From an uncultured Sphingomonadaceae bacterium (lineage in GTDB: Bacteria > Pseudomonadota > Alphaproteobacteria > Sphingomonadales > Sphingomonadaceae): DNA of 64,000 bases. How positions within the stretch are numbered: position 1 is the first letter of the stretch; every line of letters begins with the position of its first letter. The position numbers and the translations under genes were made by a program. This document shows, in pieces, positions 711 to 64,000 of this stretch. The DNA lies in the NCBI GenBank assembly GCA_947493955.1, contig CANLSQ010000001.1, positions 744,001 to 808,000 on the forward strand, given 5' to 3'. The notes under the pieces are model-generated. The model did no database searches and was not told where the DNA came from. It saw nothing but the letters and a program-made list of their open reading frames with translations.

Positions 711-1128
711 GACGACGTTTCCAGATGGGCGCACGGCTGTCTGTCGTGCTCTGATAAACCTCTTCATAGAGTTCCAGCGCCTTATCCATGACTCTGGCAT
801 CAATTGGAGCGTCCGGAGCGAAAGCATCAAAGCCACAGCGTCGCATATAGGCGATTTGATCCACCAATACATCACCACTTGCCCGCAATTCGCCTTTGTA
901 ACCTGCTTCACGCAGAATTTGCGCCGCAGAATAGCCGCGACCGTCGCCGAAGACGGGGAAGTCGACCTCGATCAATGCCAAGCGATCCAATAGCGGGAGC
1001 AGCAGCCGGGCGTCTTCGCCTGCCTCTATCCGAACGGCGGTGGCGTTTGACTGATCCAGAAATGCATCGAGCGAAACCGCTGGTTCTTCATGCACGTCGT
1101 CGTCACGAAAACGGATTGCCTCAACCAT
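703..1128 (-). CDS. DUF934 family protein of the sulfite-reduction operon
   Basis: A 141-residue protein of the DUF934 family, which is typically encoded between the sulfite reductase and cysH genes in proteobacteria. Its biochemical role is unknown; a helper role for sulfite reductase is inferred from context. A longer reading from 1188 is possible, but I chose the ATG at 1128 because a perfect AGGAGG lies 7 bases upstream and the start then overlaps the cysI stop by only 8 bases. The sequence has a mid-protein FPVFGDGRGYSAAQILR motif and GDVLVDQ, both typical of the family. The 3' end overlaps cysH by 8 bases, indicating translational coupling. Confidence 0.88.
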   Translation of the reverse strand: MVEAIRFRDDDVHEEPAVSLDAFLDQSNATAVRIEAGEDARLLLPLLDRLALIEVDFPVFGDGRGYSAAQILREAGYKGELRASGDVLVDQIAYMRRCGFDAFAPDAPIDARVMDKALELYEEVYQSTTDSRAPIWKRRHG

Positions 1129-2752
1129 AGATAGCCTCCTTGAAAGCAGCCATGCCGACACGGCGATAGGTGTCGATAAATCGCTCATCCTCCTGCCGTT
1201 CTTTCAGATACAGGTCAGTCACGGTTTCAATGGCATCGATCACGCCGTCCTCATCAAAGCCGGGACCGGTGATTTTGGCGAGGCTAGTGTCCTCGGCAGC
1301 AGAGCCGCCCAGCAGCAACTGATAATTTTCCGTCCCTTTACGGTCGACGCCCAATATACCGATATGGCCGGCATGGTGATGTCCGCAGGCATTGATGCAG
1401 CCCGAGATTTTCAGCTTCAGCTCGCCCAGTTCACGCTGGCGACCGAGATCGGCGAAACGTTCACTGATCTTCTGTGCCAGCGGAATGGAGCGCGCATTGG
1501 CAAGGCTGCAATAATCCAGACCGGGGCAGGCGATGCTGTCGGTGATCAGGTCGAGGTTGGCAGGCGCCAAATCAGCTTGATCCAGTTTCTGCCACAGAGC
1601 ATATAGATCGCTCTTCTTGACATGTGGTAGAACGATGTTCTGACTATGGGTTACGCGCAGTTCATCAAAACTATATTGCTCCGCCAGATCGGCCATTAGA
1701 TCAATCTGCGCCGATGAAGCATCGCCGGGGATGCCGCCTTTCGGCTTCAAGCTGATCGTTGCGATAGCATAGCCGGGTTGTTTGTGCGCAACCGTATTCT
1801 GATCGACCCACAGTTTGAAATCCGGATCGGACAGATCGAGCTCATCGCTTGCATTGCTATCAAAAGCCGGATCAGCAAAATATTCCGTAATCCGTGCCAG
1901 TTCTTCCACTGGTGGATTCAGGCCCAGCGTTTTCATGTGGGCAAATTCTTCTTCGACCTGGCGGGTATATTCTTCCTTACCCAGTTCATGGACGAGGATT
2001 TTGATCCGCGCCTTGTACTTGTTATCGCGCCGACCATAACGGTTATAGACCCGCAGGCATGCTTCGGCATAGCTGATCAGTTCATCTGCTGGCACAAAGT
2101 CGCGGATTTCAGGAGCGATCATTGGTGTTCGGCCCATACCGCCGCCGACATAGAATTTCGCGCCGAGTTCACCGTTCTTGTGAACGAGTTGGATGCCGAT
2201 ATCATGCAGGCGCATTGCCGCACGGTCTTCATCACTGGCAATGACGGCAATTTTAAACTTGCGTGGCAGATACGAGAATTCCGGGTGGAAGCTCGACCAT
2301 TGACGCAGGATTTCTGCCCAAGGACGTGGATCGGCAATTTCGTCGGCCGCTGCGCCAGCATATTGGTCAGAGGAGATATTGCGGATGCAGTTGCCGCTAG
2401 TTTGGATTGCGTGCATCTCGACGGAAGCCAGGTCGGCCAGAATGTCGGGTGCATCTTCCAACTTGATCCAGTTATACTGAATATTCTGACGGGTGGTAAA
2501 ATGCCCATAATCACGGTCATATTTACGTGCGATGTGGCCCAGCATTCGCATCTGCTTGCTGTTCAGCGTGCCATAGGGAATGGCCACGCGCAGCATATAG
2601 GCGTGCAGCTGCAGATAAAGCCCGTTCATCAAGCGCAGGGGTTTGAACTGGTCTTCGGTCAGTTCTCCGGCAAGGCGGCGTTCAACCTGATCGCGAAATT
2701 CCGCAACCCGTGTATCGACCATTTGCTGATCATATTTATCATATTGATACAT
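1121..2752 (-). CDS. cysI: Sulfite reductase hemoprotein (ferredoxin-type nitrite/sulfite reductase family)
   Basis: Six-electron reduction of sulfite to sulfide at a coupled siroheme and 4Fe-4S centre. The 543-residue protein has duplicated nitrite/sulfite reductase half-domains. The cluster ligands are visible: Cys409 and Cys415 (CPGLDYC), then Cys452 and Cys456 (GCINAC), followed by GHHHAGHIGILG. No separate CysJ flavoprotein gene lies in the window, so the electron donor may be ferredoxin or encoded elsewhere. The gene starts two bases after the DUF2849 stop and runs into DUF934. It sits downstream of cobA, which supplies the siroheme precursor. A nitrite reductase is the alternative; the cysH neighbour argues for sulfite. 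Confidence 0.94.
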   Translation of the reverse strand: MYQYDKYDQQMVDTRVAEFRDQVERRLAGELTEDQFKPLRLMNGLYLQLHAYMLRVAIPYGTLNSKQMRMLGHIARKYDRDYGHFTTRQNIQYNWIKLEDAPDILADLASVEMHAIQTSGNCIRNISSDQYAGAAADEIADPRPWAEILRQWSSFHPEFSYLPRKFKIAVIASDEDRAAMRLHDIGIQLVHKNGELGAKFYVGGGMGRTPMIAPEIRDFVPADELISYAEACLRVYNRYGRRDNKYKARIKILVHELGKEEYTRQVEEEFAHMKTLGLNPPVEELARITEYFADPAFDSNASDELDLSDPDFKLWVDQNTVAHKQPGYAIATISLKPKGGIPGDASSAQIDLMADLAEQYSFDELRVTHSQNIVLPHVKKSDLYALWQKLDQADLAPANLDLITDSIACPGLDYCSLANARSIPLAQKISERFADLGRQRELGELKLKISGCINACGHHHAGHIGILGVDRKGTENYQLLLGGSAAEDTSLAKITGPGFDEDGVIDAIETVTDLYLKERQEDERFIDTYRRVGMAAFKEAIYG

Positions 2753-9109: not shown

Positions 9110-10513
9110 TTGTTTAAAGGGGTCAAACCTATCCAGTATAATGGCCGTGAAGTTTGGCCATTGATTGAGGGCGGAAAAGGGGTTGCCGCGACCAATCATG
9201 CCAGTTCCGGGGCCTGGGCAGCTGCTGGCGGTATCGGCACTGTTTCGGCCGTTAATGCGGATAGCTATGACGCGGATGGCAATGTCATCCCGCAAATCTA
9301 TCATGGCAAAACCCGCGGCGCACGGCATGAAGAGCTTGTCAAATATGCAATTGATGGCGCGGTTGCACAGGTGACAAGGGCCTTTGAAATGTCCAATGGC
9401 AAGGGTGCAATCAATATCAATGTGCTTTGGGAAATGGGCGGCGCGCAACAAGTGTTGCACGGCGTTTTGGAACAGACCAAGGGCATGGTTGCGGGCGTCA
9501 CCTGCGGTGCCGGTATGCCTTACAAGCTTTCGGAAATTGCCCAGCAATATGGCGTGAATTATCTCCCGATTATCAGCTCCGCTCGCGCATTTCGTGCCTT
9601 GTGGAAGCGGGCTTATCATAAAGTTTCTGATCTTATGGCTGCCGTCGTTTATGAAGATCCTTGGTTGGCTGGCGGACACAATGGTCTCAGCAATGCTGAA
9701 GACCCTCGTAAACCGGAAGATCCATATCCTCGGGTCAAGGCGCTACGTGAGACTATGCGCGGTGAAGGAATTGCTGATAGCGTCCCCATCATCATGGCAG
9801 GCGGTGTTTGGGCTCTAAAGGACTGGGATAACTGGATCGATAATGATGAGCTGGGGCAGATTGCTTTCCAATTCGGCACCCGCCCTCTTCTTACGAAAGA
9901 AAGTCCGATCCCCGACAGCTGGAAGAATGAACTGATTAAAATCAAGGAAGGCGATGTCCTGCTGCACAAGTTTTCGCCCACCGGTTTCTACTCATCGGCG
10001 GTGCGAAATGAGTTTCTTCGCAGTCTGGAAGCACGGTCCGAACGTCAGATTCCCTATTCGACCGAGAAAGCAGGCGAACATACCCATCAACTGGATGTTG
10101 GCGTGAAGGGCAAGAACTTCTGGGTCACGCGCAATGACCTGCTCCGTGCCCGGGAATGGGATGGATTGGGGTTCACCATGGCGCTGAAGACGCCGGATAA
10201 CACAATCGTCTTCACCACACCGGAGGAAGCCAAAATGATCCGCAAGGATCAGGCCGATTGCATGGGTTGTTTGTCCCATTGCGGTTTTTCTTCCTGGAAA
10301 GACCATGACAATTTCAGCACCGGGCGACTCGCGGACCCGCGAAGTTTCTGCATTCAAAAGTCACTGCAGGAAATTGTTCATGGATCTCCTGTGGAAGAGC
10401 ATTTGATGTTCGCCGGGCACGGAGCTTATAATTTCGGTAAAGATCCTTTCTATTCCAATGGCTTTGTTCCAACGGTCAAACAGCTGGTAGATCGCATCCT
10501 GACCGGGGAATAG
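9110..10513 (+). CDS. Nitronate monooxygenase / 2-nitropropane dioxygenase-like flavoprotein with C-terminal cysteine cluster
   Basis: A 467-residue TIM-barrel protein of the nitronate monooxygenase/FabK-like superfamily, seen in the N-terminal NHASSGAWAAAGGIGTVSA, the middle GVTCGAGMPYKL and the phosphate-binding IIMAGGVWAL followed by QFGTRPLLT. It is longer than typical family members (about 320-360). The extra C-terminal part carries Cys384-x2-Cys387-x3-Cys391 (CMGCLSHC) and Cys414, which could bind metal or an iron-sulfur cluster. The start is TTG at 9110, preceded by AGGAGAG; no ATG gives an equally good start. Reaction unknown; oxidation of nitronates or NAD(P)H-dependent flavin chemistry is inferred from the fold only. 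Confidence 0.8.
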   Translation: MFKGVKPIQYNGREVWPLIEGGKGVAATNHASSGAWAAAGGIGTVSAVNADSYDADGNVIPQIYHGKTRGARHEELVKYAIDGAVAQVTRAFEMSNGKGAININVLWEMGGAQQVLHGVLEQTKGMVAGVTCGAGMPYKLSEIAQQYGVNYLPIISSARAFRALWKRAYHKVSDLMAAVVYEDPWLAGGHNGLSNAEDPRKPEDPYPRVKALRETMRGEGIADSVPIIMAGGVWALKDWDNWIDNDELGQIAFQFGTRPLLTKESPIPDSWKNELIKIKEGDVLLHKFSPTGFYSSAVRNEFLRSLEARSERQIPYSTEKAGEHTHQLDVGVKGKNFWVTRNDLLRAREWDGLGFTMALKTPDNTIVFTTPEEAKMIRKDQADCMGCLSHCGFSSWKDHDNFSTGRLADPRSFCIQKSLQEIVHGSPVEEHLMFAGHGAYNFGKDPFYSNGFVPTVKQLVDRILTGE

Positions 10514-55656: not shown

Positions 55657-56499
55657 TTAGCCGTAGCGTCCGGTAATATAGTCCCGCGTTTTCTCTTCCG
55701 TAGGATTAGTGAATATGTCGGACGTTACGCCATATTCCACCAAAGTTCCCAAATGGAAGAAGGCGGTACGTTGCGACACCCGGGCAGCTTGCTGCATATT
55801 ATGTGTCACGATTACGATAGCATATTTCCCACGCAGTTCGTGGATCAGTTCCTCAATCTTCGCCGTTGCGATGGGATCAAGCGCTGAACAAGGCTCGTCC
55901 ATCAAGATTACTTCGGGGTCAACTGCGATAGCACGGGCGATACACAGCCTTTGCTGTTGACCGCCGGATAGGGCGGTTCCGCTGTCCTGTAACCGATCTT
56001 GTACCTCACCCCAAAGACCTGCCCTCTGCAGCGACGTTTCTACAATATTGTCGAGCTCATCCTTGCTGCTGGCAAGCCCGTGAATACGGGGGCCATAAGC
56101 GATATTGTCATAAATTGACTTGGGAAATGGATTGGGTTTTTGAAAAACCATCCCGACCCGTGCTCGCAGTTGCACGACATCCATCTTCGGCGCGTAAATA
56201 TCCTCGCCTTCCAACGTAATGTCGCCGGTCACCCTAGCAATGGGAATAGTGTCATTCATCCGGTTCAGGCAGCGCAAAAAGGTAGATTTCCCGCAACCGG
56301 AAGGGCCAATGAATGCAGTGACGTTGTCCATAGTAACGTCAATGGACACATCTTTGATCGCCTGTTTCTCACCATAAAAAACATCCACGTTGCGGGTTGT
56401 CATTTTCAATGGTCCATCGCCAGCAGAAATGGCGGAAGCTGTGGTCTCTGTCATGATTGGACTTTCACTGGAACTGGTACTGTCTAATAATTCTGTCAT
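55657..56499 (-). CDS. pstB: Phosphate ABC transporter ATP-binding protein PstB
   Basis: A 280-residue ATPase with Walker [10 protein letters not shown], the ABC signature LSGGQQQRL, Walker [14 protein letters not shown] and the H-loop [15 protein letters not shown] 30-residue N-terminal stretch rich in Ser/Thr precedes the core. It begins 8 bases after the pstA stop, so it is co-translated with the permease genes. Confidence 0.97.
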
Positions 56500-56507
56500 A
56501 TCACGAT

Positions 56508-57776
56508 CTACCAGCGGGTTTCAAAACGATTGCGAAGATATATCGCAAGAGCGTTCATTGTGAGAAGGAACAGTAGCAGCACAATAATTGCCGCCGAGGT
56601 TTTTTCGACAAAGCCGCGATTTACCTCATCCGACCAAAGGAAAATTTGCACCGGTAGAACGGTGGCAGGTTCAACAATACCGCCCGGTGGTGTAGCGATA
56701 AAGGCACGCATGCCAATCATCAGCAAAGGCGCCGTTTCGCCCAAGGCCCGGGCCATGCCAATAATCGTACCTGTTAGGATGCCGGGCAGGGCGAGCGGTA
56801 GAACATGATGAAAGACAACCTGCATTTGGCTGGCACCTATGCCCAAAGCCGCCTCACGAATAGATGGAGGTACGGCTTTGACGGCATTGCGCCCGGATAT
56901 CACGATTACCGGCATGGTCATAAGAGCCAGCGTTAGCCCCCCTACCAGTGCAGCGGATCGCGGCAAACCAAAGAGATTGAGGAATACAGCCAAACCAAGC
57001 AAACCAAAGATAATCGATGGAACGGCAGCAAGATTGTTGATGGAAACCTCAATCAAGTCGGTGAAACGGTTTTTTGGCGCATATTCTTCAAGATAAAGGG
57101 CAGAAAGTACACCTATCGGGAAGGCAATGAGCAATGTGATGAACATTGTTATCAATGAACCTTTCAGCGCCCCCCATATCCCGACTTGCATCGGGTCAGT
57201 CGCGTCAGAATTGGTCAAGAAATTCCAGTTAAATCCAGTGCTCAACTGGTCTTTCAACTCGGCGACCATGTCTTCCGCAGTCTCGCTGCCACTTCCTTTA
57301 AACGCGACATCAATTTCTGATTCGACCGGCAGGTATAGCGTCGTTTTTGTTTCTACAATCTGGGGGTTTTTGAGTATCTCTTGATTGACGGTCTGCCACC
57401 CGCCAGCTGAGAACAATTCGCTGCCTTCTTCGCCATATTGAATTTGAACACTGGTGTTTACAATATCCTGAACACCCAATGTCCTGAGATTGGCCGGGCC
57501 ATTTGCTCCTTTAAACTGATCTGCAGAGGCGCCTCCCGTCATGGCAGGAAAGTCAATTTCGACTGGTAGTTCAGTTTGGGTAAAGCCGCGCAAGCCGTTT
57601 CCGACCATCACGATCATCAAAAATGCCAGAAAGCCCGCTGATAATATGATCGCACTGATGCCCAGCGCCTTGAATCGTCGTTCGGCGGCATAGCGCTTAC
57701 GAATGCGCTGTTGCATCGCACGGCTCTGCCAATCCGTGGGGTTCCGTTCTTCCACAAAGGTCGCGCTGCTATTCAT
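56508..57776 (-). CDS. pstA: Phosphate ABC transporter permease PstA (long form with N-terminal domain)
   Basis: A 422-residue permease, about 125 residues longer than E. coli PstA. The extra part follows one N-terminal membrane helix and forms a probable periplasmic DUF3333-type domain (residues about 60-190). The core has the permease motif for PstB contact ([20 protein letters not shown]) and helices starting [15 protein letters not shown]. It overlaps pstC by 8 bases. Confidence 0.95.
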
Positions 57777-59151
57777 AAGCTTCTCGATATTTTTTGACGA
57801 CTCTAAGCGCTATGAGGTTGAGCAGAAGGGTTACTATGAACAGCACAAGCCCAAGCGCAAAGGCGGCAAGAGTTTTGGGACTGTCAAATTCCTGATCACC
57901 GGTCAGCAGTTTAACGATCTGGGTCGTTACAGTTGTTACACTAGAAAACGGATTGGCGGTCATATTTGCAGCGAGACCTGCAGCCATAACAACGATCATC
58001 GTTTCACCAATGGCACGACTTACGGCGAGTAAAACGCCACCGACCACGCCCGGTAAAGCAGCCGGAATGAGGACCTTTTTTATGGTTTCACTCTTTGTCG
58101 CGCCCATGGCGAGGGATCCATCACGCATCGCACTGGGAACCGCGGCAATGCTATCATCAGCCATAGAGGAAACAAAGGGTATGATCATGATGCCCATAAC
58201 TACACCAGCAGCCAGTGCGGATTCTGAAGAGGCTCCGCTAATGCCGATGGAAACCGCAAAATCCCTCAGGGCCGGCGCAACAGTCAAAGCTGCAAAATAG
58301 CCATAAACAACCGTCGGAACGCCAGCGAGTACCTCCAAAATCGGTTTCATCCATGCGCGAAAGTTAGGTGGTGCATACTGGGTGAGATAAATTGCGCTCA
58401 TCAAACCCAGCGGGATGGCAACTATCATCGCAATGATAGCGCCGATAAACACAGTGCCCCAAAATAGAGGAATTGCACCGAATCCAGTCTCGCCCCGTGG
58501 CCCTGCGACGGCCTTGGGATTCCATTCGGTTCCGAATAAAAAGTCGATGGGAGATACCATCGAAAAGAATCGTGCCGATTCAAAGATCAATGATACAAAT
58601 ATACCGATGGTGGTAATGGTGGCGATGAGCGATGCAAAAAGCAGCAGCACCATGGTTGCGCGTTCAATCTTTGTACGTGCCCTGAGTTCCGGCTTTAGCC
58701 TAAGCCATCCGAAAGCACCGCAGGCAAACACCAACAAGAGCGCAGCAACCATCCCGAGTGTCCGATAATAGGATATTGCGGTTCGATAAGGTTCAACCAT
58801 GGATTGAGAGAGAGGGTTAAAGGCTTGAACTTGTTGCCCCGATGCGATGGAGCGCGCTTCCGCTAATATGGCGCCTCGCGCGAAAGGATCTTGTGGGAGT
58901 TGTTCTGCCGCTGGGCTGGTCAACGCCGCATCGGTGATGAGCGCCGGGCTAGCCGTGTTCCAGATCATAAGAAATAAAAGGGCAGGGCCGATAGTCCAAA
59001 GGGCGACATACCAACCATGATAATTGGGGAGTGAGTGTACAGCTCTTCTTTTTTTGTTGTCAGCTGAAAAACGGCTGGCTTTGACGCGGCCGAAAAACCA
59101 CGCAATGCCACCAAGGACAATGATCAGCATGAAGAGTATGGAGCCTGTCAC
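57769..59151 (-). CDS. pstC: Phosphate ABC transporter permease PstC (long form)
   Basis: A 460-residue permease, about 140 residues longer than E. coli PstC. The N-terminus has two membrane helices and a periplasmic Pro/Ala-rich loop (EQLPQDPFARGAI...VQAFNPLSQSMV) of the alphaproteobacterial long type; the transport core follows from about residue 170, with EWNPKAVAGPRGETGFGAIP, GVPTVVYGYFAALTVAP and the coupling motif SLAMGATKSETIKKVLIPA. It starts after the stem-loop that follows pstS. Confidence 0.95.
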   Translation of the reverse strand: MTGSILFMLIIVLGGIAWFFGRVKASRFSADNKKRRAVHSLPNYHGWYVALWTIGPALLFLMIWNTASPALITDAALTSPAAEQLPQDPFARGAILAEARSIASGQQVQAFNPLSQSMVEPYRTAISYYRTLGMVAALLLVFACGAFGWLRLKPELRARTKIERATMVLLLFASLIATITTIGIFVSLIFESARFFSMVSPIDFLFGTEWNPKAVAGPRGETGFGAIPLFWGTVFIGAIIAMIVAIPLGLMSAIYLTQYAPPNFRAWMKPILEVLAGVPTVVYGYFAALTVAPALRDFAVSIGISGASSESALAAGVVMGIMIIPFVSSMADDSIAAVPSAMRDGSLAMGATKSETIKKVLIPAALPGVVGGVLLAVSRAIGETMIVVMAAGLAANMTANPFSSVTTVTTQIVKLLTGDQEFDSPKTLAAFALGLVLFIVTLLLNLIALRVVKKYREAYE

Positions 59152-59186
59152 GGTAGAATAACTGATCCTTGGTTAGGAATAGGTAT

Positions 59187-59228
59187 AGCGGAATGCGGAC
59201 CCTTTAAGAAAGCGGCCCGCATTCCGCT
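59187..59228 (-). other. Long stem-loop between pstS and pstC
   Basis: Perfect 12-base arms AGCGGAATGCGG and CCGCATTCCGCT around an 18-base loop, 6 bases after the pstS stop on minus and 35 bases before the pstC start. No T-run follows, so it is more likely an mRNA-stabilising or attenuating hairpin than a full terminator. It would raise pstS over pstCAB levels. Confidence 0.75.
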
Positions 59229-59234
59229 AGCAAA

Positions 59235-60278
59235 TTATTTCAGTTCATCACCGGTCAAGACTGGCAGACTTTTTACTGTGTCGGCCATTTGTGTTCGAAT
59301 GTCATCAGGTGATGCGATCAGGCCAGCTTTAATAAGGTAGCCATCAGACCCACCAGCACTGACGAACTCTGTCAAATACTCCTGAAGACCAGGGATAACA
59401 CCTACATGCTGCTTTTTAGCATAGATATAAAGTGGTCGCGCTCCTGGATATTCACCAGATGCAATGGCGTCATACGCTGGTTCGACATCGGAAACAGCAA
59501 CGCCGCGGACCGAGTCGGTATTTTCCTCCAGAAAGCTATAGCCAAAAATTCCAAGACTGTTTGGGTTTGCCTTCAACTTCTGGACGATCAGGTTATCATT
59601 CTCACCGGCATCGATATAGGCACCGTCGGCACGGACATCATGGCAGATAGCGTCATATTCATCTTCATTTGTGTCTTTCAACGCTTTGGTTGTGGCGTCG
59701 GTTTTACAGCCGACTTCCATGATCAACTCGGTAAGTGCGTCACGTGTTCCAGACGTTGATGGCGGGCCATAAACACTGATTGCGATATTAGGGAGTGAAG
59801 GATCAATATCGGACCAGTTTTTCGTCTCATTCTTTTTACCAAATGGTCGTTCTGCAATGGCTTCATATATTTGCGTCGGCGTCAATTTGATCGATGGGCC
59901 TTCATTGGCTTGTGCAATCGCGATGCCGTCAATTCCGATTTGCACTTCGACCACATCAGTGACGCCGTTTTCCTTGCACATTTCAAACTCGGTTGCCTTC
60001 ATCCGCCGCGAAGCGTTGGCAATATCAGGAGTATTGGCTCCAACACCTGCGCAGAATAGCTTCATTCCGCCGCCGGTGCCGGTTGATTCCAGGATGGGTG
60101 ACGTGTTTGCTCCACCAGCGCTAAATTGTTCCGCCACCGCTTTAGCGAAAGGGAAGACGGTTGAAGAACCGACAATGCGAACTTCACTGCGTGTTCCGCC
60201 CTGTCCGCCAGAAGCCTGATCCTGACATGCTGCCAAGGCGAGTGTTGATACCGCCAAAAGAGCGATTTTCTTAAACAT
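59235..60278 (-). CDS. pstS: Phosphate-binding lipoprotein PstS
   Basis: A 347-residue periplasmic binding protein with the lipobox LALAAC near residue 19, so it is anchored to the membrane. The phosphate-contact motif SSTVFPFAKAVAEQ and STGTGGGMKLFCAG, then GPPSTSGTRDALTEL, match PstS. It is the first pst gene after phoR and carries the triple Pho box in front, with the stem-loop after it. Confidence 0.96.
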   Translation of the reverse strand: MFKKIALLAVSTLALAACQDQASGGQGGTRSEVRIVGSSTVFPFAKAVAEQFSAGGANTSPILESTGTGGGMKLFCAGVGANTPDIANASRRMKATEFEMCKENGVTDVVEVQIGIDGIAIAQANEGPSIKLTPTQIYEAIAERPFGKKNETKNWSDIDPSLPNIAISVYGPPSTSGTRDALTELIMEVGCKTDATTKALKDTNEDEYDAICHDVRADGAYIDAGENDNLIVQKLKANPNSLGIFGYSFLEENTDSVRGVAVSDVEPAYDAIASGEYPGARPLYIYAKKQHVGVIPGLQEYLTEFVSAGGSDGYLIKAGLIASPDDIRTQMADTVKSLPVLTGDELK

Positions 60279-60380
60279 TTTACCGTCCCCGTTTTCTATG
60301 GAGTGTTAAAAAATTAGCCAAGAATCGGTCCTGATTTCTGGCCGGTTGCACAGCATTTAAAAGTCCGCAGTGTCCTAATG

Positions 60381-60409
60381 ATTACATATTTATGACACTT
60401 ATATTACAT
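60381..60409 (-). promoter_or_regulatory. Triple Pho box upstream of pstS
   Basis: On minus, three seven-base units at an 11-base spacing: ATGTAAT, GTGTCAT, ATGTAAT, separated by ATAA and AAAT. They match the CTGTCAT consensus 5, 6 and 5 of 7. The upstream end overlaps the phoR 3' end by eleven bases. It lies 103-131 bases before the pstS ATG. The spacing, repeat match and position ahead of pstS make PhoB binding likely. Confidence 0.75.
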
Positions 60410-61667
60410 CGGGTATGGTGATGCTTCCGCTCTGTGGTTTGATAACCGGCAGGAATATTGCGACAGTCGTGCCAACGCCTTGTTCACTGGTTACTTCCAT
60501 CCGGCCGCCGTGCCGTTCGGTGATATGCTTGACAATGGCTAGCCCTAGCCCGGTTCCACCGATCGATTTGCTCCGCCCTTTGTCTACGCGATAAAAACGT
60601 TCCGTTAGTCGCGGAATATGCTCTGCAGCTATTCCATCGCCTTGATCCGTGACGGACAGGCGAAGCATCGAGCCATTTCGGTTGGGTTTGACTGCAACTG
60701 ATACAGGCGTACCCCGTCGTCCATATTTAATGGCATTGCTGACGAGATTATGAAGCAGCTGGGATATCTGCGCATGGTCACCCTGGATCATCGGCAAGTT
60801 GTCGGGCAGAGAGATAACAAAATTGTCTTCATTTTTGCTACGACCGTTCAGAAAAACCGTTCTCACTTCTGCCACAAGCTTGGCCAGATCAACTGGCTCT
60901 GCGGGTAGTTGATATTTTTCGGCTTCTATACGGGACAGCGACATCAGATCTTCGACCAATCGCTGCATGCGGCCGGCTTCACGATACATGATTGTCAGAA
61001 AACGTGCACGTGTGTCTTCATCTTTGCCTGCTTCGGGGTTCTCCAGAGTCTCGATAAAACCTTTTAAGGCCGCCAATGGCGTACGTAGTTCGTGACTGGC
61101 ATTGGCCACGAAATCAGTACGCATACGTTCTGCGGCGTAGCGGCTGCTTTGGTCTGACAGCTGAACCAGCTTTAGTCCGTCATCGAGTGCATGAATCCGT
61201 AATTCCCAGCGCTGATCAGCACTGCCGACTCCGACTAATAAAATCGGTTCTCCGGTATGTTCGGCATTGGGATTAGCCAAGCGGTCGGCCGCTGCCGGAT
61301 GACGAATCGCGACCCGCACGTCCTCTCCGATAATATGATTGCCTAGAAAATTTTTCGCAGCCGGATTAGCCATCGCCACTTTGGCATTGCGGATAAGTAG
61401 AATCGGGTCGGTAATGGGATCAACCACATTCTGGTAAGCTTCCGCCCTACCTTGGTATAGTAGCCGTTTTTTCTGTCGTTCCAGCGCGTTGAAATCTGGT
61501 GGCGGCGGTGCGCGATCTTCCAAGGCAACAATGGCAAGGGCGACGATTCCAAATGCCGACATAATTATAATTTTCATCAGTGCCGCGGAAGTTTGAGCAG
61601 CCAAAACTGATCCCCCGATGATCAAGAGAATCGCAAAAATCAGCCGAAATGGGGAAATTGTGTTCAT
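60399..61667 (-). CDS. phoR: Phosphate regulon sensor histidine kinase PhoR
   Basis: A 422-residue sensor kinase: two N-terminal membrane helices, a PAS-like region (about residues 80-175), the H-box with His192 (NASHELRTPLAALKGF), N-box HNLVSNAIKYG, G1 DQGDGIA, and G2 GGTGLGLAIVKHITERHGG. It phosphorylates PhoB under phosphate limitation. Its 3' end overlaps the pstS Pho box, so phoR may have its own weaker expression, while pstS has a strong inducible promoter. Confidence 0.96.
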   Translation of the reverse strand: MNTISPFRLIFAILLIIGGSVLAAQTSAALMKIIIMSAFGIVALAIVALEDRAPPPPDFNALERQKKRLLYQGRAEAYQNVVDPITDPILLIRNAKVAMANPAAKNFLGNHIIGEDVRVAIRHPAAADRLANPNAEHTGEPILLVGVGSADQRWELRIHALDDGLKLVQLSDQSSRYAAERMRTDFVANASHELRTPLAALKGFIETLENPEAGKDEDTRARFLTIMYREAGRMQRLVEDLMSLSRIEAEKYQLPAEPVDLAKLVAEVRTVFLNGRSKNEDNFVISLPDNLPMIQGDHAQISQLLHNLVSNAIKYGRRGTPVSVAVKPNRNGSMLRLSVTDQGDGIAAEHIPRLTERFYRVDKGRSKSIGGTGLGLAIVKHITERHGGRMEVTSEQGVGTTVAIFLPVIKPQSGSITIPDVI

Positions 61668-61903
61668 ATTTGCCGTTGCGCTGGAATTCGGTCTGCTTGT
61701 TTAGGCGGGTTTGCACAGAAACAGCAACGGCTATGTAAAAATTGTAGTCGATGATGCTCATCCGGAGATTGCAATCAAATCTCAGGTATTAACGGTTTTA
61801 GCCAATTTGTCCCGTTTATGGACGACGATTTGCTGTTGCGACTGTTCACTCGCATTTAATCGTTTTTCTCTTTAAGGGCTAAGTTCAGAGGAAAATATAC
61901 TTG

Positions 61904-62332
61904 ATGACCGATAATCCAACTCAGAATGGGAAAACTGCAGATTCCCAGGACGCTTCTCAGAATGCTGCGATCGTCACTCGCCGCCGTGCGTTGATGATGG
62001 GGGCCGTGACGGCTTCGGCGGTTGTTAGTATCAAGCCGGCTTTAGCGCAGACCGCTGGTTCGGTGCTGAATTGTGAAATTCCGGTCCCGGGAAATCATGC
62101 CGCGGGTGGGTATATCGGTCCTGACGGAAAAATTGTATCACCAGATACGCCGGGTGCATTTCCGCCCGCAGGCCGGAATTTTACCGGTGAAGAAGTGAAG
62201 CGCGCGATGAATGGCCGGTCTCTACCAGGCACATCCTATGATCAATCCAAAGCCTATGTGAACTATATCCGGCGGCTCCAGTCCGGGCAAAGCGGCTTTA
62301 CCTGCTACGCATCTCTGCAAATGCCGCGATAG
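61904..62332 (+). CDS. Tat-exported small protein of unknown function preceding the HprK-related cluster
   Basis: About 142 residues from the ATG at 61904; a TTG at 61901 is an alternative start, with GAGG upstream. The N-terminal 28 residues are polar, then a twin-arginine signal TRRRALMMGAVTASAVV ends at ALAQ. The mature part holds two cysteines (VLNCEIP, GFTCYAS), a glycine-proline-rich middle (GGYIGPDGKI, TPGAFPPAGRNF) and a C-terminal LQMPR. No known domain recognised. It lies 101 bases before the PqqD-like gene, on the same strand. It is a candidate substrate or partner of that system; this is inference. Confidence 0.7.
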   Translation: MTDNPTQNGKTADSQDASQNAAIVTRRRALMMGAVTASAVVSIKPALAQTAGSVLNCEIPVPGNHAAGGYIGPDGKIVSPDTPGAFPPAGRNFTGEEVKRAMNGRSLPGTSYDQSKAYVNYIRRLQSGQSGFTCYASLQMPR

Positions 62333-62433
62333 CTTTGCACTGAATTTTGGCTTCAAAGCCAATGCTTATTAACATATTCATGCTAATGGCTTTTTCGAAT
62401 GATTTGCCGTGATCAGGAATAGTGTAACCGCCA

Positions 62434-62712
62434 ATGAGCCAGCTTTATCGCGCCGCCGCCTCCGAAGGGCTGATCCAGCATCCGCTGGACAGTATGACGC
62501 TGATTTTCCAGAAATCATCGGGTATCACTCATATGGTTGTAGACCCGGTACCCGCAATACTGGCGGTTATGAACAAGGATGCTCTGACGGCCGAGGATAT
62601 CGCGGGCAGACTGTCTGATAGCTATGATCTGGAGGACAGCGGCGCCGCCGCTGATATTGTGCTGGCGAGGCTTGTCGAGCTGTGTTCGCTTGGCCTTGTG
62701 GAACAGGTTTAA
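62434..62712 (+). CDS. PqqD-like peptide chaperone (HPr-rel-A system type)
   Basis: 92 residues with the small PqqD/RRE winged-helix fold expected from its layout (LIFQKSSGITHMVVDPVPAILAVMN, then TAEDIAGRLSDSYDLED and a C-terminal helix LVELCSLGLVEQV). In RiPP pathways such domains hold a leader peptide for the modifying enzyme. I recall that protein-family databases carry an uncharacterised HPr-rel-A PqqD-like model for this context; no function is established that I know. Close upstream of the kinase gene (14 bases to its ATG). Confidence 0.78.
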   Translation: MSQLYRAAASEGLIQHPLDSMTLIFQKSSGITHMVVDPVPAILAVMNKDALTAEDIAGRLSDSYDLEDSGAAADIVLARLVELCSLGLVEQV

Positions 62713-62726
62713 GACCGGTGGTGCGC

Positions 62727-63587
62727 ATGCATCAGCTCTATCTTACGGTTGGGCCAACGCGATTTCGGTTGGCGTCGACCTGGCGGCGGCCTCTCGATCA
62801 ACTGGCAGCCCTCTACAAGGACTATCCAACGTCACAGGATGGCTACGCTGACTTCACCGTCCGGTTGGAGCCTGAAAAACCTTGGCGGCGCTATTTTCGG
62901 CCTTCTGTTCACATCTCCGGTGATTTTTGGCTTCCTGATGCTGCGCCGCTCCCGCTTGATCAAAGCCTATTGGCTGCGGAAATGGGTATGAATCTCCAAA
63001 TGGCACTGGGTTGGCGGCGGCATCTTTTGCTGCACGCCAGCAGTGTCGAAAAGGATGGTAAGGCATTGCTAATGACCGGCTTGTCAGGTTCGGGAAAGTC
63101 GACGCTATCCGCCATGCTCGCGGAAAAAGGCTGGCGATTCATGGGCGATGAATTTGCCTTGCTCAATCCGGACACCGGCATGGCGCACAGCTTCCCTCGG
63201 TTGATCAGCCTCAAGAATGAGGCAATTGCGGCAATGCAGGCAATTGTACCTGAAAATCGTTTTGGCCCCTTGATGAAGGGGACGCCGAAAGGAGATATCC
63301 GCCATATCGTCCCGCCGCTGGATGCGGTGAACAGAATGGTGGACGCCGCCAAGCCTGCATTGCTTCTGTTTCCGCGCTTTGGTCATGATCCTGCTCTACG
63401 CGACATGGGCAAGAGCGAGATATTTGTTCGGCTGACCCAGGCATCGACCAACTATGTGGCTCTTGGAGAGACAGGCTTTCGGGCATTGACTCAGTTTGTT
63501 GATACAGTTCCCACGAGAGCGATGGACTATCAGTCGGGCGATCAGGCCGAAGAGCTGATTGATAGCTTGTGGAGCAAGCTCCCATGA
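62727..63587 (+). CDS. HprK-related kinase A
   Basis: About 286 residues from the ATG at 62727; GTG codons at 62718 and 62721 are possible starts. It has the Walker A GLSGSGKST (residues near 118-126) and the downstream acidic motif GDEFALL near residue 140, as in HPr kinase/phosphorylase C-domains and lasso-peptide kinases. The N-terminal 100 residues are not the HprK N-domain. A phosphotransfer to a protein or peptide Ser is inferred. No ptsH gene is in the window. It overlaps the next gene by 4 bases. Confidence 0.83.
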   Translation: MHQLYLTVGPTRFRLASTWRRPLDQLAALYKDYPTSQDGYADFTVRLEPEKPWRRYFRPSVHISGDFWLPDAAPLPLDQSLLAAEMGMNLQMALGWRRHLLLHASSVEKDGKALLMTGLSGSGKSTLSAMLAEKGWRFMGDEFALLNPDTGMAHSFPRLISLKNEAIAAMQAIVPENRFGPLMKGTPKGDIRHIVPPLDAVNRMVDAAKPALLLFPRFGHDPALRDMGKSEIFVRLTQASTNYVALGETGFRALTQFVDTVPTRAMDYQSGDQAEELIDSLWSKLP

Positions 63588-64000
63588 TGCGCGATGCTCA
63601 ACCTTTGGTCGATGCCTTGCGCGAACCAGAGACGGTTCTCTCACTTGATGGCGCTGGATGGACCAACCTGATCAGCATTGCCCGAGCAGAATCGCTCATC
63701 GGCAGTCTTGCCCATCGGTTGGCCGAAATTGCTGTCCCGGAGCAAGTCGGGCCCATTCTGAAAGATGCGATTCAAGCTACTGATCTTGCAAGACAGCAAG
63801 CGCTTTGGGAGGCAGATTGCGCGCGCCGGGCTCTTGCGCCGCTAAATTGCAAGGTCGTGCTGATGAAAGGCACCGCCTATGTAGCGGCGGATCTTGATGC
63901 GGGGGTTGGTCGAAGCATTGGTGATCTTGATATCATGGTCGCACAAGATTCGCTGCCCGCTGTTGAAGAGGCGTTGCTGGATGCGAGTTGGGAATGGGTA
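63584..64000 (+). CDS. Nucleotidyltransferase-fold protein (NTP_transf_5-like), partial at the right edge
   Basis: The first 139 residues are in the window; the reading is open to base 64000. It starts at ATG 63584, overlapping the kinase stop by four bases (ATGATG; a second ATG at 63587). An alpha-helical N-terminal part is followed by LMKGTAYVA and GRSIGDLDIMV, matching the nucleotidyltransferase pattern of a conserved Lys-Gly then D-x-D for metal binding. In kinase-bearing lasso-peptide clusters a similar protein accompanies the kinase and PqqD-like protein. It probably transfers a nucleotide, but acceptor and donor are unknown. Confidence 0.78.
   Translation, partial: MMRDAQPLVDALREPETVLSLDGAGWTNLISIARAESLIGSLAHRLAEIAVPEQVGPILKDAIQATDLARQQALWEADCARRALAPLNCKVVLMKGTAYVAADLDAGVGRSIGDLDIMVAQDSLPAVEEALLDASWEWV

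Follow-up and report, generated by a model that had tools for sequence, protein, structure and literature searches.

The 64,000-nucleotide stretch analysed here (the window) comes from an uncultured Sphingomonadaceae bacterium (GenBank assembly GCA_947493955.1, contig CANLSQ010000001.1, positions 744,001 to 808,000) and carries at its right end, on the + strand, a unit of four genes, the last of which crosses the window edge. The unit begins with a gene for a short protein with a twin-arginine (RR) signal resembling those of the twin-arginine translocation (Tat) pathway, followed by genes for a PqqD-like protein, an HprK-related kinase and a nucleotidyltransferase-fold protein (NTP_transf_5). 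The features are:

61806..61824, no strand assigned: conserved element TTTGTCCCGTTTATGGACG, which includes the inverted repeat GTCC-N7-GGAC and precedes the RR-signal gene; possible operator

61904..62332, + strand: RR-signal (Tat-like), putatively exported protein of 142 amino acids, candidate substrate; open reading frame (ORF) with ATG at 61904, TTG at 61901 also open

62294..62329, + strand: C-terminal tail GFTCYASLQMPR of that protein (residues 131-142), with the codon of Ser137, the proposed acceptor, at 62312-62314 and that of Cys134 at 62303-62305

62434..62712, + strand: PqqD-like protein, PqqD_rel_X (TIGR04353), resembling by its predicted model a recognition element (RRE) of ribosomally synthesised and post-translationally modified peptides (RiPPs)

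62727..63587, + strand: HprK-related kinase A (TIGR04352); in-frame GTG alternative at 62682

63584..64000, + strand, on to contig position 808603 (G000:C1:808603; L002:4104): NTP_transf_5 nucleotidyltransferase-fold protein (PF14907)

The ORF map bears out the arrangement given in a preliminary description made from the sequence alone, namely three enzyme genes running in one direction, with 14 bases between the PqqD-like gene and the kinase and a 4-base overlap between the kinase and NTP_transf_5. The protein assignments made there also agree with the models. The PqqD-like product scored 48.7 bits against TIGR04353 (cut-off 35), the kinase, with the Walker A sequence GLSGSGKST, 244.2 bits against TIGR04352 (HprK_rel_A; cut-off 200), and the NTP_transf_5 product, with its D-x-D in the sequence G-D-L-D, 69.2 bits for the part inside the window and 159.2 bits for the whole gene against PF14907 (cut-off 31.2). 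The four neighbouring genes form a real unit, three members of which match named models. The PqqD-like gene and the kinase, both above the curated cut-offs, belong by NCBI's names to the HPr-rel-A system, and the description of TIGR04353 is HPr-rel-A system PqqD family peptide chaperone. NCBIfam only names these genes, however, and the substrate candidate lies outside its models; the RR-signal protein matched no model in searches of the NCBIfam and Pfam libraries. No literature on 'HPr-rel-A' or 'HprK-related kinase' was found in the full texts of one open-access library. The names phoR, Gph, GlmU, GlmS, RapZ, PrsK/PrsR-like and 'EPS export' for neighbouring genes were assigned by eye wherever no model is given.

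Kinase relatives were collected from named genomes and the best 80 of 223 were kept, giving 81 loci together with the locus in the window. The RR-signal gene was located upstream in 79 of the 81 sphingomonad loci, and the two misses (L027 and L056) end at a contig edge at that place. PqqD was present in 80/81 loci and NTP_transf_5 in 81/81, so the joint conservation of the genes, whose absence the preliminary description had named as counting against its proposal, was observed. A phosphatase gene was found in 31/81 loci and glmU in 45/81. Given that these counts are lower than those of the core genes, the conserved unit consists of the RR-signal gene, pqqD, the kinase and NTP_transf_5. The Tat-exported neighbour of the preliminary description is in our view the best substrate candidate rather than a bystander. 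In broader genome samples, the kinase exceeded its cut-off in 79 of 147 genomes sampled from the order and in 61 of 398 sampled from the phylum.

The RR-signal protein and the kinase were also retained together. A profile of the RR-signal protein built from 33 rows was run on 64 genomes of the same family, and a strong match was obtained in 22 of the 23 kinase-positive genomes compared with 0 of the 41 kinase-negative ones (Fisher's exact test, p = 3×10−16); the 23rd kinase-positive genome (G268) had a weak match, located elsewhere. In three genomes (G495, G456 and G214) the gene lies at a distance from the kinase within one contig, and in a fourth (G473) it is on a different contig, but it is retained in all four. 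In G268 the PqqD-like gene lies beside the substrate gene and the kinase and NTP_transf_5 genes are on another contig, and this split is one natural case that pairs PqqD with the substrate candidate.

The C-terminal tail of the 79 sphingomonad proteins reads GFTC[YF][AT]S[LI], in which T, C and S were each found in 79/79. For the eight codons of GFTCYASL, 10096 pairwise codon differences were synonymous and 1556 non-synonymous, and given that the codons vary, mostly synonymously, the constraint acts on the protein (purifying selection). Mean column conservation (alignment A1) was highest for residues 129-142 (0.92), followed by residues 117-128 (0.88), 26-49 (0.81), 50-116 (0.71) and 1-25 (0.37). 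The predicted model of the candidate (mean pLDDT, the predicted local distance difference test, 59.7) is ordered at about residues 71-120 and flexible at the ends, including the tail, and it had no PDB match at E ≤ 0.001 (best E 4.2).

The same arrangement was found in distant relatives. Sixty divergent or sampled loci (L087-L146, the best 30 matches each from the phylum and order samples, with L144-L146 from the same family) were filtered for an RR-type protein with [STCAG]CxxS[hydrophobic] near its C terminus, encoded 150-900 bases upstream of the kinase. The filter was passed in 49/60 loci, and inspection added three loci, namely L109, L103 with the gene on the opposite strand and L120 with two copies, so that RR-signal proteins with the common C-terminal motif [ST]-C-x-x-S lie next to 52 of the 60 kinases; in L119, the locus of G268, such a protein is present but unlinked. 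When the filter was applied to 1261 other ORFs of 100-260 amino acids as a chance control, 14 passed; on inspection 12 of these were further substrate-like proteins and 2 were not, which leaves 2 chance matches in about 1249 ORFs. The 59 distinct tails of the distant set carry S (47) or T (12) directly before Cys and, in every case, W, L, V, I, Y or F directly after it; the filter demands neither. Distant members are 13-33% identical to the window protein, and over 42 divergent proteins only four columns were invariant, those of one signal Arg, of the first Cys in the mature region and of the motif Cys and Ser, the last two being filter criteria for the distant members; the other signal Arg was present in at least 90% of these 42 sequences, the RR-type pattern being part of the selection.

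The enzymes retain their catalytic residues. His, the Walker A Lys, Asp and Glu (H103, K124, D141 and E142 in 286-residue numbering) were invariant in 138/138 kinases. The fourth catalytic position is therefore Glu here (H-K-D-E, correspondence by eye), compared with the His-Lys-Asp-Asp reported for the lasso peptide kinases. Both Asp residues of the NTP_transf_5 D-x-D were kept in 121/121 ungapped sequences (123 aligned). The predicted model of the PqqD-like protein (pLDDT 86.7) had as top PDB matches TbiB1, a lasso B1 protein with leader peptide (TM score 0.71, E 7e-4), and PqqD (TM score 0.69), suggesting an RRE-like holder fold. Comparison of the kinase with PDB sequences gave weak P-loop and HprK matches only (HprK E 0.76). 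A role in anti-phage defence was considered and rejected; the only PADLOC matches were weak P-loop ones to the kinase (E 0.0055 and 0.0074), and the remaining three genes had none.

Two described systems resemble the cassette. Paeninodin-type kinases are HprK-like and phosphorylate a Ser near the C terminus, and in the pseudomycoidin pathway PsmN, annotated as a nucleotidyltransferase, adds hexoses to the phosphoserine made by PsmK (PMC9266682). The cassette has in common with these clusters the HprK-like kinase, a relative of PsmN (NTP_transf_5) and a B1-type RRE, but it is without cyclase or B2 protease and is paired with an RR-signal protein some 140 amino acids long. The second system is that of the linear polyphosphorylated peptides (LPP; Popov et al. 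2026, PMC13381572), which are described for Bacillota, with a discrete RRE, an HprK-like kinase and an NTP transferase but no cyclase; their core set also comprises an MsbA-like exporter and a leader peptidase of the SpI type. LPP precursors of 35-200 amino acids have variable C termini, a Ser of the core is polyphosphorylated and leader processing is RRE-dependent; the locus holds many glycosyltransferases, and expression of an exopolysaccharide gene rose in parallel in the host studied (PMC13381572). As far as the LPP system is described there, the cassette likewise has a discrete RRE (by model), an HprK-like kinase, an NTP transferase and no cyclase, and the length of its candidate substrate, the proposed phosphoserine and the glycosyltransferase and polysaccharide surroundings agree too, but it occurs in proteobacteria, an RR signal replaces the dedicated exporter and the C-terminal motif is conserved. 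The terms Proteobacteria, Pseudomonadota, Sphing-, exosortase and twin-arginine gave no hit when PMC13381572 was searched for them. Among the neighbouring ORFs no SpI-type peptidase or MsbA-like exporter was recognised, no profile search having been run for either. The cassette would work like LPP, yet it is set apart by its phylum and by having no recognised adjoining peptidase or exporter, and we do not class it as an LPP member. By analogy, it appears to be a variant of the phospho-tailoring known from paeninodin and LPP.

In many genomes the cassette is embedded in or near exosortase A (XrtA)/PEP-CTERM polysaccharide loci. The substrate candidate differs from PEP-CTERM proteins in having no PEP-CTERM-like end (by eye), and in the genome of the window exosortase A lies 92 kb from the cassette. 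In the order sample both kinase and exosortase A exceeded their cut-offs in 65 genomes, the kinase only in 14, exosortase A only in 34 and neither in 34 (odds ratio 4.6, p = 4×10−5, ancestry ignored), and the kinase was located at most 20 kb from exosortase A in 34 genomes, a count that includes sub-cut-off exosortases. The corresponding numbers in the phylum sample were 25, 36, 10 and 327 (odds ratio 22.7, p = 2×10−15, ancestry again ignored).

On balance we consider it probable that the four genes encode a substrate together with its modification machinery. This reading is based on the observed gene association, co-retention and conservation of motif and catalytic residues, together with the predicted RRE fold, from which we infer the substrate role, the acceptor residue, the order of steps, the nature of the second group and Tat export. 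The RR-signal precursor would be synthesised in the cytoplasm and gripped, presumably via its N-terminal part, by the PqqD-like RRE-type adapter; the HprK-related kinase would put a phosphate on the invariant Ser of [ST]-C-x-x-S (Ser137 in the window protein); NTP_transf_5 would attach a sugar or nucleotide to this phosphate; and the Tat pathway would carry the modified protein out. The order holder, kinase, transferase is proposed by analogy with LppK/LppB and PsmK/PsmN, and modification of a protein folded in the cytoplasm would suit Tat over Sec. LppK leaves the S3T variant unphosphorylated (PMC13381572), which fits an acceptor Ser that is never replaced by Thr.

Several points weigh against this reading. 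All co-occurrence statistics, both for kinase and substrate and for kinase and exosortase A, ignore shared ancestry. The Tat label comes from the motif; the NCBIfam search yielded no Tat-signal model for the window protein, and the [YW]xxP motif of lasso and LPP RREs is not evident by eye in the substrate N-terminus. The chemistry of NTP_transf_5 is uncertain given that deletion of LppN gave no visible effect in a heterologous test (PMC13381572). Since the motif Cys and Ser were chosen by the filter, the unselected features of the distant set are the flanking residues and the first Cys only. When about 1.5 kb upstream was examined, three of the 60 divergent loci (L105, L106 and L112) had no recognised substrate and four (L087, L089, L090 and L104) had another RR-signal protein without the motif, two of these proteins being clear and those of L087 and L104 loosely similar only, which indicates that the acceptor rule is not universal. 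Finally, 14 of the 79 kinase genomes in the order sample were without strict exosortase A (8 have a sub-cut-off match above 170 bits), as were 36 of the 61 in the phylum sample (6 have a match at E ≤ 1e-30), and the exosortase link is therefore an association and not a rule.

A second type of RR-signal companion was noted in L089, L090, L158, L160, L162 and L163, with C-x-x-S-G near the mature start and often [ST]PG[WFY]. It matched no NCBIfam or Pfam family above cut-off, and one sub-cut-off match was to a formate dehydrogenase TAT-target model.

Another explanation makes the RR-signal protein a partner or reader of the system in the periplasm and places the modification on a different molecule, such as a sugar or a polysaccharide precursor. 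The association with exosortase-A polysaccharide loci in both samples would be expected under this explanation, and so would the family 4 glycosyltransferase (GT4) gene that separates the substrate gene from pqqD in 16 of the 78 sphingomonad loci having both flanking genes, a gene that we also count in favour of the preferred reading; moreover, a peptide substrate of NTP_transf_5 in the cassette is not proven. A ribosomal peptide is, however, the usual cargo of an RRE-like adapter, in one genome with a split cassette PqqD has remained beside the short protein, and conservation of that protein peaks at the tail motif despite the predicted disorder there. A target other than the protein seems to us unlikely.

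A variant closer to the preferred reading keeps the short protein as substrate and places the modification on other residues, such as the Thr/Ser before Cys, the Cys, the Tyr, or several of them. A Ser or Thr precedes Cys in 79/79 sphingomonad and 59/59 distant tails and the Cys is invariant as well; yet the residue at Cys+3 is always Ser and the characterised HprK-like peptide kinases considered here act on Ser. We regard another acceptor as quite improbable.

The preliminary description placed the genes in a peptide or protein modification system, which fits the conserved unit, the RRE-like holder, the catalytic residues and the D-x-D, and considered a lasso peptide cluster whose cyclase and B2 protease lie beyond the right edge; this second part was not supported. 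Right of the unit lie phosphatase-like (Gph), glmU-, glmS- and katG-like genes and others, with neither a lasso cyclase nor a B2 protease among them. A truncated or split paeninodin-type cluster, with cyclase, B2 protease and short precursor elsewhere, could account for the shared B1-like RRE, HprK-like kinase and NTP_transf_5, and an asparagine-synthetase-like gene does lie 3' of the cassette in L148 and L153. This gene is an XrtA amidotransferase (TIGR03108, 1017.9 and 979.2 bits, cut-off 816.9) and scored only 239.5 and 238.1 bits with the lasso-cyclase model (cut-off 525). In the genome of the window the best score with the cyclase model was 222.8 bits, obtained beside exosortase A, and there was no match to PF13471, which we take to be the B2 leader peptidase family (transglutaminase-like fold). 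The conserved partner is moreover about 140 amino acids long (142 here), although ORFs below 50 amino acids were not searched systematically. A lasso origin is thus very improbable. Least credible of all, and rejected, is a kinase that serves as HPr kinase of the cell or regulates the phosphotransferase system while the other genes act separately. A distant similarity to HPr kinase speaks for it, at scores below the cut-offs (TIGR00679 19.7 bits against 240; Pfam 16.9 bits). Against it, a separate short HprK-like gene (144 amino acids) is present in the genome next to a sensor kinase and a RapZ-like ORF (RapZ and ordinary HprK being labels by eye), and the kinase is patchily distributed with its partner genes moving with it.

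The surroundings of the cassette yielded further observations. The XrtA amidotransferase, an asparagine-synthetase relative located directly 3' of NTP_transf_5 (L148:11700-13610, L153:6181-8190 (-)), is the closest thing to the cyclase anticipated in the preliminary description. The gene order in L153 is XrtA deacetylase (TIGR03006), FemAB (TIGR03019), stp1, stp2, substrate, PqqD, kinase, NTP_transf_5 and XrtA amidotransferase (TIGR03108), the NTP_transf_5 gene being seen in L099, which covers the same place. In L165 exosortase A is at the cassette locus, and a trypsin-like protease gene (PF13365, L165:6611-7381) adjoins the cassette, with similar-looking ORFs close to the cassettes of L149, L150, L154 and L162 (by eye). 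Tandem substrate-like copies occur in L120/L166 and L180; two such proteins with one enzyme set (L180:8734-9474 + 9667-10320 (-) and L120:1-426 + 795-1373 (+)) recall multi-precursor RiPP clusters.

On the left, phoR-like and pst-like genes adjoin the cassette (window 55657-61667), as they do in many relatives; the PhoR-like ORF cluster (F6) was found in 75/81 loci and the PstS-like cluster (F11) in 63/81. Pho-box regulation, suggested by the adjoining phoR-like gene, was rejected, as a simple pattern found no box in the intergenic stretch. The element TTTGTCCCGTTTATGGACG lies in the stretch that separates the RR-signal gene from the divergent phoR-like gene and matched once in its own genome when up to 3 mismatches were allowed, compared with 1 forward and 2 reverse matches of a reversed-pattern control. 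Its 17-base core was found at up to 4 mismatches in 24/79 relatives compared with 8/1580 shuffles, and its spacing is near-fixed within a subclade; it is a possible operator.

The HPr-rel-A genes were until now named families without a known substrate, and the analysis yields a concrete substrate candidate, a single proposed acceptor residue and a recognition partner. To our knowledge the chemistry by which exosortase-A cargo is attached is poorly understood. A wider proposal, which we put forward tentatively and consider doubtful, is that a RiPP-type machine acts on a Tat-exported protein and builds, inside the cell, a phosphodiester-linked sugar on one C-terminal Ser, and that the resulting phosphoglycoprotein would serve as anchor, primer or organiser of the surface exosortase-A exopolysaccharide in several proteobacterial lineages. 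If the preferred reading is right, RiPP-type phospho-tailoring would extend to Tat-exported proteins and would be tied to exosortase-A polysaccharide biology.

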